NCBI GenBank assembly: GCA_009192285.1
Contig: CM018604.1
Location: 2,046,001-2,110,000, forward strand
Source: Morchella semilibera
Taxonomy: Eukaryota; Ascomycota; Pezizomycetes; Pezizales; Morchellaceae
Reading direction: 5' to 3'
DNA length: 64,000 nt
Within the stretch, counting starts at the first letter, position 1. The number at the start of each line of letters is the position of its first letter. The notes beneath the pieces are model-generated. The model searched no databases and had not been told where the DNA came from. It worked only from the letters and a program-made list of their open reading frames with translations. Below, piece by piece: positions 4,015-62,402 of this stretch. A program made the position numbers and the translations under genes.

Positions 4015-4388
4015 TAGTATGGTGCTGTAAACGTGGCAAAAGTGATTTTACCAACGGTGGTAAATTATTTTACCAACGGTGGTAAATTATTTTACCACAG
4101 GTGGTGAAAATAATACAGCATTTATATGGAGCGGTAAATGGTATAAGCACTGAATTTCAGTCCTTGTTCCAGTATAAATGCTGACTTTCAATCTTTATTC
4201 TGCATTATCATTAATACCAACAGTTTCACACCGGTGGTAAAATAGCTGCCACCAGTGGTAAAATGACCTACCACTGGTGGTGAAATTCCCCACCGGTGGA
4301 CAATGTTCATATATATTGGCATTATATAGCCCCTTTTGGCCAAAAGGTCTGTGATTTTATCCATTTTATTGTATAAATGTTGGAATTA

Positions 4389-20256: not shown

Positions 20257-20575
20257 TATGGAGCGGTAAATGTGCCAAAAGTAATTTTATCAACGGTGGT
20301 ATAAGCACCGAATTTCAGTCCTCGTGCCAATACAAATGCTGAATTTCAGTCTTTATGCTGCATTATACTACATTAATCATGAGTGCCAATTATTATGAAG
20401 TTTTCCCGCCGGTGGTAAAATACCTGTCACTAGTGGTAAAATGCTTGCCACTGGTGGTGAAATTCCCCACCGGTGGACATTATATAGCCCCTTTTGGCCA
20501 AAGGATCTGTTCTTTATCCATTTTAAGGTATAAATATTTACCATCGTTGGTCAAATTACATACCACACTATACTA
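20257..20575 (+). repeat. Second copy of the ACCACCGGTGGT repeat family, single arm
   Basis: TATGGAGCGGTAAATGTGCC starts a 320-bp stretch that parallels the left arm of the 4015-4730 element block by block: GAATTTCAGTCCT, AATGCTGAATTTCAGTCTTTATGCTGCATTAT, the CCGGTGGTAAAATA series, then TTCCCCACCGGTGGACA and ATATAGCCCCTTTTGGCCAAA. It lacks the inverted partner arm. Confidence 0.7.
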
Positions 20576-21228: not shown

Positions 21229-22431
21229 CTATTTTTTCGCCGGAGTTTTGATGGTTCCTGTCTGGTTATATATTGGACTTGCCTCACGGCGCTTTGGCCG
21301 AACTCCATCATACTCAGGAAATACCAGCGATCCCTTCCTATTATGGAGCATTCGAGATTTCTTCAAAAATGGCAGTCCCACCAATGCGTTGTGGGAGAAA
21401 TGAGTCATCACAACAAACTCCACTTCCTCAAAAGTCTTATCCTGGCTGTCAAATTTCCAGGTGAAGTTCATATAGGGCATAGAACTTGACACCGTGCCAT
21501 CAACATTGAGTATCTTTTGCTGGCGCTCAGGGACTGAAATAACCTCGATACCGTGCTCCTCAAGCCACGATTTCTTGACCACGTTTAGGGTTCCTCCCGT
21601 ATCGATTATGGGCTTCACCCGTACCCCGTTCAGCTCCCCAGGGAAAAACAGAAAATCGTCATCCTCGCCGTCCTCGCCGTCCTCGTCGTCCTTCTTCTCT
21701 GGCTGCTCGGATGGGGGAGAGGGATCTGGTACCGCGGGAGGCGGAGCACCGGACCCAAACAACTCAGGCTTGTGACATTGTCAGGTGTTTGTCAAGAGCT
21801 TTTATAGAGACCAGACCACCTACCCGCAAAGCCATATTCCTGTTCCTTAGTTCCGCAGCGGCAGCTAATCCCAATTTTCTCGCGCCCTGGCAAGACGCCA
21901 CACGTTCCAGGACACGTTTGTCATATGCGGCCGCTGAGCCTAAAAGATATTCACGGGTACAGTCCAGAAGCTTGTCATTATGGTCTCCAATTAGATCGTG
22001 TAGTCCCTGGAGAGTATCATTCTGATCAGGTTCGGTGATTTTTTGTAGAAACTCTATTAACTTGTCCCAGAATTCGCACGCTTCCTCAAGAAGGGTCTCT
22101 TGGCCGATCTCGGTGAATTGCCTGTAGACCGAAGTATACAACCCAAGGTCCTGGTCGTATATGAGGAATCTAATGAGTTCGCTTAAGGAATTTTTGCTTT
22201 GGACGAATTGCTTTGGGTGAGATAAACCGTGTCAGTTAATGGCTTCATACTACGTCGGCAGTCTTCTATACGGACCTCATCTCCCGTCTCCTCCAACACC
22301 CCCGAAATTCGGCCAACAAGAGCCGAGAGCTGTTCAAAGCCTTTCTCTGGAAGCTTGAACTCTACATGTGAAGGATCAAGTCCACTCGTAAGAGACAGAA
22401 GCGAATCGTTGATGACATTTAGGTCGCTCAT
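21229..22431 (-). CDS. Retropepsin-like aspartic protease domain protein
   Basis: The likely start is ATG at 22431 (MSDLNVINDSLLSLTSGL). A helical N-terminal region (to SMKPLTDT near 22215) is followed by a second helical block (LSELIRFLIYDQDLGLY ... AAAELRNRNMALR). A 55-bp intron around 21820-21770 (GTAGGT donor, CTGAC branch, CACAAG acceptor) then joins PELFGSGAPPP in phase. An acidic linker (DDEDGEDGEDDD) precedes the protease fold: GVRVKPIIDTGGTLNVVKKS with the catalytic DTG, and the later ALVGLPFL strand that closes retropepsin folds. The joint between the first two blocks (22215-22130) is not certain; a 77-bp intron or a frameshift would both fit. There is no reverse transcriptase or integrase beside it and the gene has introns, so it looks like a host gene rather than a retroelement. 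Function unknown. Confidence 0.6.
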
Positions 22432-23816
22432 TTTGGCCGGGGCTCCCAAAAGAGGATCGATGTGGTGTTCTAGTATTGCAATTGTATGATAGCCCAAAGG
22501 CCCCTTGACATAATATACCTTCAAAACAGGATCTGGGACCCAAGTATCATCTTATGTTATGCTGGATTTTCTCGCGATCGATGCAAATATAGTTAGATAG
22601 CTGGTAACGTAACACCAACAAATCCTCCCCATATTTCCTTTTTCAGACCGGGTCAATAAGTGGGGCATATAGTAGCGCTCGCAGAGCCGACGAATGGCTG
22701 ACATGCCTCGTAACGAAAGCGGGGAAATGAGAAACAATGAAGTTATCTAGTGCTTTGCTTTTAAATCCATGCGGACCCAGCGCATAACACGCTGAGGCAC
22801 AAAAGATGAAGACCTCAACCAACTACGGGATCAATGGAAAGAGGGAAGACCAAGTAGACGAGATGGGCAGTCGGGCCACAATTGTTGGGCGTTTGTCCTT
22901 TACAGAAACTCGCGAAGCCCCATTGGCCACGGCGCGATTTTCAGGATTGCACCTACAACCTCGCAAAATCTTTTCATAATATACAAGGCTTCATACCACT
23001 CAAAATATGATGGTATACTAGGAACATGGCCATGCATGGTGTTGATGATATATATCTGACCAAGACCTTGACCTACAACATACATCCACCTCAACAGGTA
23101 TCTCATCCCTAGACTTCCGATATATTGGATACGTATATATGTACCTACACACAGGGAAAGTTGTTAGTCAATGACTAGAGAGCATATTGGTTCTACGCTC
23201 TGCGCGTTTGTAGACTGGACCGACATTGCATGCATAGTACCATATAAAATTGCATTTTTTGTATGCTACGCAATAGTGGTCCAGTTGAAAACGTCAGGAA
23301 GGATACTAGCAAGGATGAATAGACACGTCACTCCCTCAAACACAAGTAAACCTTCAGCTGAACAATGGAAATATGGGGGGTTGTAGGTACTTGGGAAGGT
23401 AAGAAGAACCCGGAAATCACTTTAAAGGTAACAGCCTCTGATACGCGACTAGGAAAAGAGTACACCAAATTGGGTCCTGCTTTGTAGCTTGCATTTACAG
23501 GTTCTTATTTCCTGCCCCGAGTACCTATACCACGTTTCGTAGTGAAATTCGAAGGCTTCCAGACACTCATAGCAAATATACATAGGTTGAGCCTTGCTTT
23601 AGAATAACCTCATGTAGGCCCATTTTAGAAATATTATCCTCGCAAGAGTATTCCAACGCCAAGAGTTAACTCAGTTTGGTGGGCTCGTACAGCATTAGAT
23701 TTCATCGTTTTATATTTGACCTCACTGCTCATCCAGATCACTTCCTCCGCACTATAGTAACTACCTAGCCTCCTCCCATTACATCTGCAGCTTTCGAACT
23801 TCTATTGATCGTAACC
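22432..23816. other. Intergenic between retropepsin-like and fucose-lectin-like genes
   Basis: No gene is supported. The two neighbours are divergent (minus to the left, plus to the right), so this 1.4 kb probably holds both promoters. No clear TATA box or shared motif was seen. Confidence 0.4.
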
Positions 23817-25077
23817 ATGACCAGCACACCGGCGCCAGCTTTCAACGTAAAGAACTCCATGCTACGGCAGTCTTCCATCGCTGTGTGTGGAATTTGGCCT
23901 ACTAGTACACACGATATTTTCTTTCAAGATAATTGCGGACGGATCCGTTGTATCACCTCAAATGAGTACAAGAAGTACGAAGGGGGGGATGAAGGTAGCA
24001 GAATTTTCATCGCGAACAACGCAAAGTGGCATACCCCCCTCGCTGCGGTTGCATATGGCACAGCATGCCCGAACCACAAATACGTCCATATCAAAGATAA
24101 AAGAGTTAGTTAGACCTGATCCTTCGCAATTCAGGACAAAATTATGCTAATATATAGAGCAGATCTACCTATTCTACTTGAACTCGGAGAACCTTATTCG
24201 ATGTAATGTTAGACCATGAAACTAGTATGGAGTTGGGCACATCTCTAATATAGCGATCCGTTCAGGCATTAGGTTTGATGGGGAGCAGTGGGTGGCAGTT
24301 GTGGAATTCCACAAACTTAACATTGCTGTCCATCCAAGTTCTTCTCTTTCAGCCGTGGTCCTTGAGGAAGGGTCAAAGATCCTACTTTACTACCAGGGGC
24401 TTGATAACAACATATACGAGCGCATCTTTACCCTGAGATCCACCATGTGGTCAGGAGAGCGTCGTGTCGCCTTGGCCATCCCAGGCTCTCATATATCGGC
24501 AGTAGCCCACATTGTTAACGGTGTGATAAAAATCTGTGTCTTAAATCAACAGAAGGCCCTGGATATCATTTGTACGTCTAGAGACATTGAGACGTCTACT
24601 TTCTCTGGTGAGATCACCCCAGATTCCGACCAACCTTTGCCCAAATATTCAAGGCTAATTCTCCAAATCTCAAGAAACTACCACATCTACTACACTGCTC
24701 CCACATCAGCCTTTCAACGCAACATTTGCCCCAGGAAAAAAGCTTAACCATATGCTGACCTCCATCGATAAGGAGCAATGTATCGTCTGGTCCGAGGGGC
24801 AATACTTTAAAGGCCGCGCTGCAGCACCAGAGGCCGATGCGCTCATTTATAGCGGATGTGCGGCTGTGTCTATTCTTGCAGAGACACTTCCCTCAGGCGA
24901 GGAAGATGTGAAGTTCCATGTATTCTATCAGGGATCAAAGTTACAGCTACGATCAGCTGTATACCAATATCCAAGTGGAAAATGGATTGATGGGGTAAGT
25001 GATTTACCAACGGGTCAAGAGAAATAAAGAGCACCTCCTCCTTGTTTCAGTACTGTGAGGGTCTAGTGGAAGCTTAA
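23817..25077 (+). pseudogene. AAL-type fucose-specific lectin-like beta-propeller, one frameshift
   Basis: Exon 1 starts at ATG 23817 (an in-frame ATG at 23805 is possible). Intron 24109-24265 joins KDKRVS to IRFDGEQWVAVV in phase. Exon 2 runs until about 24713, where the frame changes by one base: TAPTSAF is in one frame and NATFAPGKKLNHMLTS in the next. A final intron 24995-25050 (GTAAGT, TTTCAG, 56 bp) adds YCEGLVEA and the stop. The blade motif of the family repeats: IFFQDNCGRIRC, LLYYQGLDNNIYE, FHVFYQGSKLQLRSAVYQ. About 340 codons agrees with six blades (Aleuria lectin is 312 residues). These lectins bind fucosylated glycans. The lone frameshift could be a sequencing error or recent loss. 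Family assignment is good; exact sugar contacts were not checked. Confidence 0.65.
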
Positions 25078-31094: not shown

Positions 31095-34000
31095 ATGGAA
31101 GCTGCTGGCTTGTCCCTCGGCGTAGTATCCCTTGTTGCCCAGTTCGCTACCTATGGCATCCAGCTTCACGACCTTTACAGGACTGCGGGCAATGCTGGGG
31201 AACGAATCGCCACATTAAATACAGCATTGCAATTGGAGCTACAGGTATTGAAAAACTGGACCATTGAAACAGGTCTGGATAAAAAAAAACCCACGAGGCC
31301 CATCGATGAGAATTATCTCATGATACTCAGGATCCTTGCAGTAATTGTGAAGCTTCTCACCGATATAGCTCAGATAAAAGCACAGTTTGGTGACGTTAGT
31401 CATAACCCCCAGCCTCCTCAACGCGTACAGACAGGGCCATCGAAGGCCCGGGGACGGATGTTAGTGGCCGTGGTACCCGAGTTTTTGAGAAAGCGCGGCC
31501 GAACTCCCTCGACGGGGCCCGGAAGAGACGTCGTTCAAGAGCATTTTAAGGAGCTGGGCATAGATCACTCACGCTCCGTAAAGGAACAACTGGACGCTCT
31601 ACACGACCTAGCTCGGAAAACCCAAGAGGCACTTCCGACCCTCGTAAAGGCGAAATGGGCTTGGTCGGAAAAGGACAAATTAGAGGGTCTTATTGCAGAG
31701 TTGAAAGTGTGGAATGAAAACCTTAAGCGTATCCCATTACGGAGAACGGGTATGCAAACAATGATAGCCCCCTGATTGGGTTAATTCGTTTCATTCTAAC
31801 GAAATAGCAGATGAGAGTGGGGAGTTTCTGGTCAAGTTTGGCCTCGCTTATCCCCAAAATCCGTTTTTTTGTGGGAGGAAAGATATCCTTCAGAAAATAG
31901 GCCTGACTTTTTGGCCTGGCGGAACTATCTTAAATGCCTCAGGGGCGGAACGTAGTATTGTTTTGCTACACGGTCTTGGGGGAATTGGGAAATCACAAAT
32001 TGCTCTGGAATACGCTTACAGATACGAGGGTGAATATTTCTCGAGACTTTGGATTAATGCTGATAATCCTGCGGAAGTTCATAAGAGTTGCTTCAACGCG
32101 TTGAAAACAATAGCCGGCTTGTATTCCGACTTACGACCCAATTGGACGCCCCGGCAGATTGCGAATGCACTATCCGTTTGTGCTAAAGTTGAGAGTCAGG
32201 AAGAACTGATGGATGCTTTGTCAAAGGAGCCTTTGGAGTCCCTTAAGGTGTGGCTTGCAAGACCTGACAACAACCGGTGGTTGGTCGTGATCGACAATTA
32301 CAATGATATCAAATCCCTCGACCTCCACCAGCTTCTGCAGGGAAATGGTTCTGGGCATGTACTTATCACCACTCGGGATAAAAACATAGCTATAGGCGGC
32401 AAATATGAGAAAATCGAGGTTTTAGAGTTTGATAGCGCTAAGGGTATTGAGTTTCTCATCGACCGCTCTCGGAAGGGACAAGTTGACAATTTGGGTTTGT
32501 TCTCACAGTCAATCATAAATGTACCAAACAGATGCTAACATATTGATACCCGACTAGAAAATGAACATGCTGGCAGTATCGTCGACCTAGTCGGTGGACT
32601 TCCACTCGCCCTTGAACAAGCGGCGGCGTATATAGAGGCGTCTGGATGCACTTTCAAAGTGTATGAAAATCTTTTGAGAGCGGATCGGAACCGTCCTCTA
32701 TTTCAGAACCGAAGAGAAAATTGTGTGTTCTCCACAACCCAATATACCATAAACACGGTCTGGAAGTTGTCTTTCGGGAGGCTTGACCACAATGCAACTA
32801 AACTACTGAAACTATGCTCATTTATCTCGAACAGAGGCATCAAGCATCAGATGATAAAGCGCGGCAAAGTTGAACTTGATTGGATAAAAGGTGTGTTAGC
32901 TATGAAACTCTTGTGCCGACTCCATTATATTAATACTGAGGTCTAAAACTGTCTAGGCAACCCCCCCAATAAGGAAAACGAGGAGGAGGCTATTCTCCAG
33001 AGAGCGTTCCATGATCTAGTCATCCTTTCGTTCATGACGCGCGAGGTCGCTCCAGAGGGGGAGGAACAATATGGGATCCATCCGCTCGTTCATAGTTGGG
33101 TCAGAAATGTGGTGTCCATTGGGTCACGCGACCCGCAGCCGGAAGACATTTGTATAGATTCAAACCAGAGCCAAGCGAACGGAACAATCTCCAAACATCC
33201 AGATTCGAAGGAGGCAAAAGAGTACTCCCAATTAGCCCTTTTTGTTGTCACCTCCAATTTTCAGCTTCATGAGCGCCGAGCCATGGATGAATGGACTTAT
33301 GAACTCTCGCTCGAGCCGCATGTGGACTGCTGCCACGAGAACTTTAAGGATCGATCCATTCCAGATCTAGAGAAGGGTCTAGAGAAGGATCTCAACTATG
33401 AAAAAATCCACACCTCCCTCTATGTCCTGGCTCAAGTTTTCGCACGCTTTGGACGGCTTGATACGGCTCACGACATCTACTTCAAGATCTTCAGTGGTTC
33501 AAAAAAGGACTCGCTGGAAATAGCTGATTTGGATATGATGGATAAGTTTGGGAAAAACCTATTCCTACGCGGCAATAATGACGAGGCACTCGAGTGGTAC
33601 AGGCGGGCGCTTTCCGGCAAGGAAAAAAAACTTGGTGAAGATGATACATCCACGCTCGACACCCGTCGCAATATGGCCGAAGTCTACAGGGTGCAGGGGA
33701 TGTTTGATAGGGCTTTGGAGGAGTACAGAGTTATATTCAGGGAACAGAGTTCAAAGGACCAGCCTGGTCATCCTTCTATAGCTACTCTGGAAACTAAGCA
33801 GAGCATTGGCGTATTGCAGAAGAGCCGTGGGAACTTTATGGAGGCATTGGCTATTCTCGATGAGGTGCTTAAAGAAAAGGAAAAGATACACCAAGGGTCG
33901 CCTAACCATCCTTCAATACTCGAAACCCTACATGAAGTTGCGATGGTGTACGACATGAATGGTGAATATAAGACGGCCAATAAAGTATACACTAGAGTGC

Positions 34001-35406
34001 TCGAGGCGCAAGAGGCGGCTCTCGGGAAGGACCACTATATAACCATCGACACAGTTCATAGTCTTGCTGGTGTCTATGACAGACAAGGTCACTACAAGGC
34101 GGCCTTGTCTTTGTATGGGAGGGCTTTGGAGGGGTTTGAGAAGTCGTTTGGAAGGACCCACCCGTGGACGCTCATGGCTGTTAGCGGAATAGCGGATATC
34201 CTCGAAAAAGAAGCGCAATACGATTCCGCACTCAAAAATTACCACGAGGTTTACGAAGGATTGCACGATAGGGGCGTAATAGATACTAGGCTATATATGA
34301 CCGCCTCCGATATCGGCAAAGTGTATGCCAAGCTGGGAAAATACGGCAAAGCCCTGGAATGGTATGAAACATCTGTGAATGGTTACAAGGGGGTATTGGG
34401 CTTGGGGGAGGATCACGCACTGGTAATCTCATCAAATTTCGGCATTGCTAGCGTCCGGGAGCACCAGGGCGAATACAACGAGGCATACGGTTCATATATC
34501 AAGGTTCTCGAGGGATATCAGAAGGCTATAGGAGACGACCACGATGCAACATGGACCGCGAAACAATTCATAGCTGGCGTGCTACGAAACAAGGGACAGT
34601 ACGCTGAAGCACTGCAATATTATCTTGAATCAGAGAAGTTTTTCAAAGAAAAACATGGCGAGGACCATGTATTAACCTTGAAGTCGGCCGCTGGAGCGGC
34701 CGGTGTCCATGATGACCTCGGAAACTATAAGGATGCTGTGAAACTTTACGAGCGAGCAAGAAAAGGACTGGAGAAGTTATTTGAGAAAGACCATCCCGTG
34801 ACGCTGCAAGTTGTTTGCGGAATGGGTCTTGTGCTGGAGCATCAGGAGAAATACGCTGAAGCTGAAGCGGAATACAACTTTGCTTACGATGGATGGAAAA
34901 AGAGGTTCGATGACAAACACCCTTCTACGCTGCTTGCACTTTACAGAATTGGAAATGTCCAAAAGAAAAAAAAGCTGTACGAGGAGGCACTCTCACAATA
35001 CAACAAGGCACTACATCCCCCGGTAAAAGCTCATGACGAGGCACCAGTCGTTGTTGCCATAAATCACCCTTTCAGGTACCAAATACTCTGCGGCATTGGA
35101 AGTGTTCTCAAGAAGCAAGGCCATTATGACAAGGCCCTAGCCCATTATCAAGAAGCAAGGGAAGGACTAGAAAGGTTAATAGGCCCGGAGCATCCATTAA
35201 CTCTCACCGCGGTCCACGGTATGGCTGGGACACTTGAGAAGCAGAAGAGGTATCCCGGGGCTTCGGAACAGTATAAAAAAGCCTGGGAAGGACGTGAAAA
35301 AGCGCTTGGTACAAAGCACCCAAAAACCGTACTCAGCAAGAAAAAATATACAAGCTCGCGATCGAAGTCATGGTATAAGAATTTCCTACAACGAGGGCAG
35401 CCTTAA
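31095..35406 (+). CDS. HeLo-like / NB-ARC / TPR NOD-like receptor (fungal STAND NTPase)
   Basis: Exons 31095-31749, 31811-32494, 32558-32890 and 32957-35406 join in phase to 1373 codons, and the apparent stops at 31775, 32538 and 32945 fall in introns of 61, 63 and 66 bp. The N-terminus (GLSLGVVSLVAQFATYGIQL, then LNTALQLELQVLKNW) resembles HeLo membrane-targeting death domains. NB-ARC follows: P-loop GLGGIGKS at residues 273-280, Walker B-like RWLVVIDNYND, sensor GHVLITTRD, GGLPLALEQAAAY, and the HPLVH motif at 599-603 that takes the place of plant MHD. From about residue 695 to 1350 there are roughly 42-residue TPRs of kinesin-light-chain type (for example AALGKDHYITIDTVHSLAGVYDRQG). Fungal proteins of this build act in non-self recognition and cell death: ligand binding by the repeats drives NTP-dependent oligomerisation. 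All key NTPase motifs are present. The ligand is unknown. Confidence 0.88.
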
Positions 35407-40330: not shown

Positions 40331-40336
40331 TATAAA
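40331..40336 (+). promoter_or_regulatory. TATA-like box of the GH43 gene
   Basis: TATAAA lies 75-80 bp upstream of the ATG at 40411, a usual distance when the leader is short. A second out-of-frame ATG at 40358 lies between and might act as an upstream start. Confidence 0.4.
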
Positions 40337-40410
40337 TCAGCCCTTCCCCCGTTCACCATGGATTTCTTTCCTTCTCACCGTCAATCGCCGCCGTCGCCGC
40401 CCCCGTCGCT

Positions 40411-41593
40411 ATGCAGCTTCTCACCTTCTTCACGGCCGCCCTCGCTGGCCTGTCCTCTGTCGCCAGCGCCGCCAGCTTCACAAATCCACTCAAAAACCCC
40501 AATGGTAGTGACCCGCACATTGTCTATACTGGCGGTTATTACTACCTCACGACCACTACATGGACCAACATCCAACTGACGCGTGCCACTACAATCGCCG
40601 GCCTCAGGACCGCCACTCCCACCGTCGTATGGACCGACAGCACGACCAGCAGAGCCGGAAACTTCTGGGCGCCTGGTAAGTAGCTAGACAGTACTACTGC
40701 TTCATTTTGGTATGGTTGAAAGGATATCTCGCTGACAGAGAAGGTAGAGCTCCACTGGATCGACAACAAGTGGTGGATCTACTATACCGCTGGTACCGCC
40801 GCCTGCTGTGACAACCAGCGCCAGCACGTCCTTGAGGGCGGTACCACCCCGCTCTCAGGTTACGCCTACAGGGCGCGTCTCTCTGCTGAATGGGGCATTG
40901 ACGGAACTATTCTCCGTGTCGGAACAAGCATGTACCTTGTCTGGAGTCGCTTCAGTCCTGCCGGTCTGCAGAGTTTGTACATTGCCCTCATGAGCAATGC
41001 GTACACCATTGGAACACCGTACTTGTTGAGTCAGCCGACAAACAGCTGGGAGGTTGTGGGTGGAGCCGTTAATGAAGGGCCTGCAGCCATGTATTGTAAG
41101 CTATCTCTGGCCATGGTCTTTTTTTGGTATATGTGGGTTAGGATTAGGACATAGCTAATTACGGGTGGTTTGTTTCATAGACGGTGGAAAGACGTACCTT
41201 GCCTTCAGTGCTAGTTACTGCTGGACCGCCAGCTACCAGCTTGGCCTGCTCACATGGAACGGCGGTGACCCGCTGCTGGCAAGCAGCTGGGCAAAGACAG
41301 GCCCAGTCTTTAGCAGCGCCAATGGCAACTACGGTACTGGCCACAATGGGTATGCATAAACTCTCTCGCTCGTTGCATGAACAGAAGCTGACTCAATTGC
41401 CTGACATAGATTCTTCGTGAGCCCCGACGGAAGTGAGATCTGGAACGTCTACCACGCAACCTCTGCGAGTGGGGGAGCGTGTGATGGAAACAGGTACACT
41501 ATGGCGCAGAAGGTCAACTGGAGTAACAACGTCCCTGTCTTTGGCTCCGCACCGAGCTTGTCCACCACCATTACTGGACCCTCGGGCGAGTAG
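40411..41593 (+). CDS. Secreted GH43 family glycoside hydrolase (arabinofuranosidase/arabinanase type)
   Basis: Four exons, 40411-40675, 40748-41095, 41181-41349 and 41410-41593, give 321 residues. Introns begin GTAAGT, GTAAGC and GTATGC. The first acceptor was placed at 40747 because it restores the conserved NFWAPELHW. Residues 1-20 form a signal peptide (MQLLTFFTAALAGLSSVASA). The five-bladed propeller carries the family triad: base Asp34 in GSDPHIVYTGG, pKa-tuning Asp140 in EWGIDGTIL, acid Glu198 in AVNEGPAAMYY. GHNGFFVSPDG near the C-terminus is also typical. Closest in style to GH43 subfamily 26 exo-alpha-1,5-L-arabinofuranosidases, which release arabinose from pectin side chains outside the cell. 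No carbohydrate-binding module. Apparently intact. Confidence 0.9.
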
Positions 41594-60623: not shown

Positions 60624-62402
60624 ATGATGGAATCCCCCTTTCAAAGATCTTCAAACACTACCCAGATGATGTCTCAACAACGGCACGATACTATTACCGC
60701 TTTCGAGGACTCGCAAGGCACTATTAAAAAGTCAAATCTAGACAAGCTTCCTACAGAGATATTGTTGCAGATTTTTGAAAGTTTACGCAAATCGGACCTA
60801 AGTTCGTTGACGTCTGTGAACCGTCGTTGGAATGCTCTCGTACTTCCGGTGCTTTACAAAACCTTTATCATCGGCACTTACGGTAGCAGTGCAGCTCAGT
60901 CAGAGGCAGTTCTTCGACATGCCAATAGCGTTACATTTTCCAAGAAGTAAATCCCTTCCTCTACCCTTAGTGTATTCAAGTAACTCATACTTTAAACGTG
61001 GGCAGGGCCAGGGGGCTTCATAGAGTCAAACTTGTCCAACATATAAAATTCTATACCTCTGCTCACTACTTTTCGCCAAAGAATATCACCATACACGAAT
61101 TTACAAATCTCAAGACTCTAGCCTTACTTTCTCTAGACCGCAACTGTCACCAGGAATCTTATTACCGGACATTAAACTCTATCCTAATGCCAAGTTTACA
61201 AAGCTTACACATAGGATTACGGTGTGAAGCAGCCGAGCTTCAATTTCCGGTACTGTTAAGTGCAAGCTGTGTACTTCGAGGCCTTCCAAAACTTGGAGTA
61301 ATCAGGTACAGCCGCTTGAGAACAAAGAGTGAATTTGCAAGAATGGGAGAAGCCCCTGATGAAGAGGTAGTTATTGAAGATGCGCTTGGTGGCGGTACAT
61401 TGGTCGGTAAATACGACGGGACTATGACATCCTGTCAGCTCTTTGTAAGAGACATACTCGGCTTTCTATTACCAAGCTAGAGACTTACTTACTACAATAT
61501 TATAGTCAACTTATATTCACCACATCTCAACTCTACCCCACCTCAAAACCATAGATCTGGACCTCGGCATTACCACCGATTCATTTGTTGATCTTCGGGG
61601 CAGCTTACCTAACAGTTTCAGGGTTATCTCCGATTTTCTCGATACAAGGAGAGCTCGAAACATAAATAATACTCGCGAGAAAAAACTGATGCTTCTCTCG
61701 AAAACTCAGTTTGATGAGCTCATCACGGACTTCACTGACGAAATCACCCGCCGAAATACTCTCTCTGCAGATGGTCTTCCTTTGACAAGCTATCTTGAGC
61801 CCATTGACGAATACTCCTACAAGCGAAACCAGGTGCGTGCGAAGTTTGCGACTGTTCAACAACAAGCCTTCGAGGAACTTGCAGCCGATGTGCATGAGCA
61901 AATGCTCAGGTCATACCCACAATTGTCGATTCCGGGGTATAAACATCTTTTTGAACCAACTCCACCCTTTGGAAGCCATTCTTTTGGAAATGTAACATGC
62001 TTGAACAAGGTTGAACAGGTGCGATTATTACGAGTGGTACCGAAAGAAAATCGCAACGAGGCGCTGATGCAGACCCTTTGTGACATGCAAACATACTGTG
62101 CTCCCCTGATGTATGAGTGCCTGGCCGAATATGGCATGAATAATATCGAAAAGATTCGTATCAGGATGCCCCTTGATGGGCCGTGGATGGAGGTTCTGAT
62201 TAGTCGAGACGAGGCAAATTCTAAAGTGGAGGTTGTGTCATTGTTTCCAGATGTGGTTCTATCGGGAAAGCTGGCGAGTTTACTGGCTAATGGGCAGAGA
62301 TGGGGCTGTTATGTGATCTATCAGAATAACAAGCGGAGAGTTGACAACTGTGCTTTGCTGGAGTTCAGGGAAAGAAAATGGTGTCCTGTTACCCACATTT
62401 AG
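60624..62402 (+). CDS. F-box domain protein
   Basis: Exons 60624-60946, 61006-61444 and 61506-62402 join in phase to 552 residues; introns are 59 bp (GTAAAT..GGCAG) and 61 bp (GTAAGA..TATAG). The second intron removes the stop at about 61480 and joins CQLF to STYIHHISTLPHLKTIDLDL. The F-box lies at residues 39-85 (LDKLPTEILLQIFESLR, LTSVNRRWNALVLPVLYKT), the part that docks on Skp1 in SCF ubiquitin ligases. Downstream is leucine-rich, LRR-like sequence (ITIHEFTNLKTLALLSLD, LMPSLQSLHIGL), the usual substrate-reading part of fungal F-box proteins, and a longer C-terminal region without a known domain. The substrate is unknown. The gene looks intact. An in-frame Met2 is equally good as start. 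Confidence 0.8.

Follow-up and report, generated by a model that had tools for sequence, protein, structure and literature searches.

Does the locus at 31095–35406 of this stretch hold a broken gene, as its four separate raw reading frames suggest, or one intact gene, and if intact, what kind of protein would it encode? We addressed this question in a 64,000-nucleotide stretch of Morchella semilibera DNA (hereafter the window; contig CM018604.1, positions 2,046,001 to 2,110,000, or G000:C2:2046001-2110000), taken from a genome of 56.76 Mb in 23 contigs. Once three short introns are removed, the four frames merge into a single frame of 1373 codons plus a stop, and the predicted protein carries an N-terminal HeLo domain, a central NB-ARC domain and C-terminal tetratricopeptide repeats (TPRs). 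We estimate a probability of roughly 85% that this is a standard fungal all-in-one cell-death receptor of the signal transduction ATPase with numerous domains (STAND)/NOD-like receptor (NLR) type, an assignment in which the anatomy is observed and the mechanism would be that of relatives.

The gene lies on the forward strand. Exon 1 (31095–31749) encodes the HeLo domain and is followed, at the HeLo/NB-ARC boundary, by intron 1 (31750–31810; 61 bp, GTATGC...CAG), after which exon 2 (31811–32494) encodes the NB-ARC with its P-loop, the Walker B-like LVVIDN and ITTRD. Intron 2 (32495–32557; 63 bp, GTTTGT...TAG), which has GCTAAC upstream, leads into exon 3 (32558–32890), where the NB-ARC ends and a DUF7779-like region starts. 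Intron 3 (32891–32956; 66 bp, GTGTGT...TAG) precedes exon 4 (32957–35406), which encodes IHPLVH, about 15 TPR units of 42 residues by hand count, and the stop codon. All three introns are GT..AG, and the exon lengths place each of them in phase 1. CTAAC-type branch sites are visible in introns 1 and 2, with only a weaker TACTGA in intron 3. The exons total 4122 nt with zero internal stops in the predicted spliced frame, and retention of any single intron would bring a premature stop after 226 (intron 1), 460 (intron 2) or 575 (intron 3) residues. GC content is 37–39% in the introns and 46–52% at exon third positions, and GC by codon position is coding-like across all four exons. The exon ends, intron sizes and 1373-codon frame of the original prediction were exact to the base, and predicted splicing confirms the gene as an intact four-exon locus.

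The length of the spliced frame was compared with random sequence by allowing up to three short introns, using a donor set that contained the donors seen in the gene and that was applied equally to the random copies. The longest open reading frame (ORF) in the real region was 1375 codons including the stop, while the reverse strand of that region gave 136 codons and 100 random order-1 Markov copies at most 224 (mean 128). The one codon beyond the expected 1374 fits a tandem acceptor, TAG/CAG, at 31805–31810 at the end of intron 1, which makes two proteins one residue apart possible.

Independent support for the introns came from profile matches that continue from exon to exon. NF040586, an NCBIfam family of bacterial NB-ARC/TPR proteins (FxSxx-COOH system TPR protein, FxSxx_TPR), is collinear along the exons: exon 2 matches its positions 3–168, exon 3 positions 172–272 and exon 4 positions 428–709 (best of three stretches), and residues 233–611 of the spliced protein match positions 3–332 as one stretch. 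Both the NF040586 and the DUF7779 matches cross the intron 3 junction. Splicing raised the Pfam NB-ARC score from 25.9 bits for exon 2 alone to 35.7 bits, and the DUF7779 score from 12.5 bits for exon 3 alone to 18.8 bits, still under the cut-off of 27. Since the introns restore a collinear protein, we rejected the reading of the four raw frames as a pseudogene. Skew of the kind left by repeat-induced point mutation (RIP) was not found in the gene, where TpA/ApT is 0.78.

Searches of the spliced protein bear out the intact three-part design that had been proposed, with all three Pfam matches over their cut-offs. HeLo (PF14479) spans residues 5–213 with 62.5 bits in the whole protein (cut-off 23.2) and 67.9 bits for exon 1 alone; NB-ARC (PF00931), at the score given above, spans residues 264–479 (cut-off 23.5); and TPR_12 reaches 266.8 bits in the whole protein (cut-off 30.1) and 280.1 bits over 9 stretches of exon 4 alone, where many TPR families match. 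The N-terminus had been described as HeLo-like, and a HeLo-type domain is indeed present, but its family is HeLo PF14479 and not the separate HeLo-like PF17111; no other Pfam family matched exon 1 at E-values (E) up to 10. The predicted NTPase motifs are also in place: GLGGIGKS at residue 273, LVVIDN at 376, ITTRD at 404, GGLPLAL at 459 and IHPLVH at 598, of which we take the first to be the P-loop, the second a Walker B-like motif and the last an MHD-like motif. An N-terminal effector, a central NB-ARC and C-terminal superstructure-forming repeats, all recognised by Pfam, are the three parts of a STAND/NLR protein.

A few further matches were set aside. Pfam MIT and SNAP rose over their cut-offs on TPR residues, and PADLOC, run on exons 1, 2 and 4, matched nothing in exons 1 and 2 and, in the TPR exon, three TPR families and Csx1/Csm6 (CARF+HEPN) at E 4e-5; MIT, SNAP and Csx1/Csm6 were all taken as cross-matching by TPRs. 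With residues 1–743 as query, phmmer returned four chains, AfsR being the best at E 0.03. The HeLo domain starts at residue 5 and leaves no room for an N-terminal amyloid motif, although no search aimed at amyloid motifs was made. Of 210 window ORFs of at least 75 amino acids, 19 outside this gene were scanned with Pfam and none matched HeLo, and a two-gene amyloid system is for that reason not favoured.

The same genome holds relatives of this gene. An NB-ARC search gave nine matches, from which eight loci were made, including L006, which is the window gene itself. Two identical loci, L007 and L008, represent a second HeLo/NB-ARC/TPR receptor, with a HeLo of 95.6 bits, TPRs, and an NB-ARC of 25.8 bits, over the cut-off, in the genome search. 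The genome thus contains at least two such genes, a lower bound since they were counted through NB-ARC. The HeLo domains of L007 and the window gene share 25% identity. L007 differs by lacking intron 1, its HeLo and NB-ARC lying within one ORF (for which alone NB-ARC scores 18.8 bits, under the cut-off), but it shares the site of intron 2: when only GT donors were considered and the best-scoring candidate was taken, its best GT..AG candidate fell at the window site in the same phase. The candidate in L002 was 4 residues off, also in the same phase. For intron 3, L002 and L005 have phase-1 candidates at residue 568 versus residue 558 in the window gene, in a gapped region of the alignment. If GC donors are allowed, GC candidates score slightly above the GT ones in L007 and L002. 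L001 carries NB-ARC and TPRs in one ORF, and its alignment is loose around junction 3.

L003 and L004 form another identical pair. Both pairs (L007/L008 on contigs C9/C10, L003/L004 on C12/C13 of G000) are 100% identical NLR loci at near-equal coordinates, on contig pairs of similar size, and reflect either a duplication of contigs or the presence of two nuclei or haplotypes that hardly differ. ORFs upstream of NB-ARC in L002, L003 and L005 contain GTPHQG/GTPHMG, putative lipase-like motifs that hint at sesB-like/NB-ARC NLRs.

To place the HeLo domain among known structures, we combined the window and L007 domains in a two-sequence profile. HET-s of Podospora anserina (2wvo, 2wvn and 2wvq) then provided the first three of four Protein Data Bank (PDB) matches, with whole-chain E of 0.0024–0.0037, a weak match suggesting that the window HeLo is related to the HET-s HeLo domain. 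Single-sequence searches added candidates that we discarded: the sole PDB match of exon 1 in phmmer was a chemokine at E 1.2, which we ascribe to chance, and the Foldseek list for exon 1 was dropped as evidence because the underlying model was too poor.

Several observations weigh against assigning the gene to this receptor class. The HET-s match is itself weak: E is 0.0024 for the whole chain, but in the two alignments displayed no single stretch does better than about 1; phmmer with exon 1 alone finds no HET-s in the PDB, and the L007 HeLo alone finds it only at E 0.25. The single-sequence fold model of exon 1 is all-helical but poor (mean predicted local distance difference test score, pLDDT, 49.3), and of the 404 matches that Foldseek returned for it none reached E ≤0.001, with no HET-s among the 50 rows listed. 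The relatives do not agree on every intron: the best intron 2 candidate of L005 is 5 residues off and in phase 2, and the best intron 3 candidate of L007 is in phase 2 at residue 576. Finally, published work describes HeLo-like domains as almost invariably joined to NACHT and seldom to NB-ARC (Dyrka et al., PMC4986451), and 820 (97%) of the HeLo-like NLRs of Sordariales as T-NACHT type (PMC12258605), figures that concern HeLo-like categories which may not equal PF14479. The HeLo and NB-ARC pairing may therefore be a rarer combination, yet a known one.

Among other roles for an intact gene, the original prediction had put forward a sensor of heterokaryon incompatibility (het) or antagonism. In a het gene, the TPR array would tell apart the allelic forms of a partner protein once hyphae have fused. 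PLP-1 of Neurospora crassa is a het NLR with TPRs (PMC12881547). The units of the window array, which are nearest to kinesin light chains among PDB matches and have a period of 42 residues, are diverged: among 15 units set by hand, the highest pair has 40% amino acid and 52% DNA identity, a BLAST search of the protein with part of exon 4 gives off-diagonal matches of 24–31% identity, and Tandem Repeats Finder (TRF) detects no TPR array. Since a few of the hand-set units are out of register, their median identity was disregarded, as was a BLAST of the TPR part against itself, whose single match was the trivial one. The array does not reach high conservation, defined as internal identity of >85% across 100 or more amino acids of repeats. 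Such conservation occurs in just 21.2% of fungal NLR TPR arrays (Dyrka 2014, PMC4986451), and because most arrays lack it, its absence is weak evidence against a het role. The proposed sensor role finds no support here, and we consider a het gene decidedly unlikely; it would in any case be a special case of the cell-death receptor, so that the odds of the two overlap. A signalling STAND ATPase without a cell-death role, built on an NB-ARC/TPR core like that of bacterial FxSxx_TPR proteins, would explain why NF040586 matches exons 2, 3 and 4. Neither exon 4 (266.8 bits) nor residues 1–743 (166.8 bits) reach that family's cut-off of 300, however, and a HeLo domain occupies the N-terminus, which makes this explanation very unlikely.

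The gene could also be a decaying or non-functional copy that still appears intact, given that NLR copy numbers vary widely within and between species (PMC4986451). An uninterrupted 1373 codons free of stops and frameshifts, coding-like GC by codon position, retained NTPase motifs and the lack of RIP-like skew argue against decay, and we judge it decidedly unlikely as well. Lastly, intron 1 sits at the HeLo/NB-ARC junction and its retention would leave a protein of 226 residues, in which a tail of some 8 residues follows the HeLo domain. This raises the idea that regulated splicing of intron 1 yields two products, the complete receptor and a separate HeLo protein that, like HET-S on its own, would serve as executioner or decoy. 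We regard this as highly improbable, but if true, a single locus would switch between the all-in-one and two-gene designs.

If the gene is the all-in-one cell-death receptor that we favour, its relatives suggest how it may act. At rest the TPR array would keep the NB-ARC ATPase closed, until it is opened from the TPR surface, where a ligand binds or a guarded host protein is altered. The opened NB-ARC would swap its nucleotide and then oligomerise, and the N-terminal HeLo four-helix domains, now clustered, would present their first helix and make the plasma membrane permeable, with death of the fungal cell or hyphal compartment as the presumed outcome. A mechanism of TPR sensing, NB-ARC oligomerisation and HeLo attack is in print (PMC3321046, PMC4986451, PMC12881547).

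By description, the closest known counterparts are the STAND proteins of Daskalov et al. 2012 (PMC3321046), which have HeLo, NB-ARC and TPR in the same order as the window gene and were named the all-in-one design. In contrast, HET-S, whose HeLo is related to that of the window, is an effector protein in its own right that carries an amyloid domain at its C-terminus (PMC3321046), whereas the window HeLo is fused to its own receptor. PLP-1 is likewise an NB-ARC and TPR receptor controlling cell death (PMC12881547), but with a patatin phospholipase instead of HeLo at its N-terminus. Plant CC/RPW8 NLRs, including the ZAR1 resistosome, similarly join an N-terminal four-helix domain that attacks membranes to a nucleotide-binding switch (reviewed in PMC12881547), though their sensor is a leucine-rich repeat rather than TPRs, a likeness drawn by description.

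Elsewhere in the window, ORF 24226–24747 matches the fungal fucose-specific lectin family (PF07938), and the flanking ORFs 23769–24110 and 24659–25024 resemble further parts of it by eye, with no Pfam match. On the minus strand, 21229–22551 encodes a retropepsin-like aspartyl protease domain (PF13975/PF13650) beside two ORFs without a Pfam match. Two ORFs at 40336–41151 match consecutive stretches of glycoside hydrolase family 43 and are probably exons of one gene, and ORF 61506–62402, with a Spa2-homology (GIT_SHD) domain, is perhaps a polarity protein. Short tandem units of 21–22 bp with GTGGTAAA in common occur far apart, at 4045–4299 and 20412–20463, and perhaps form a small repeat element.

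The gene brings no new mechanism, and its architecture was published in 2012. It shows how an intact NLR gene can look broken in raw frames owing to short fungal introns. It is also a further HeLo/NB-ARC/TPR receptor with a cleanly resolved gene model, of a pairing that is in the minority in one order (Sordariales), and its genome contains at least two such genes.
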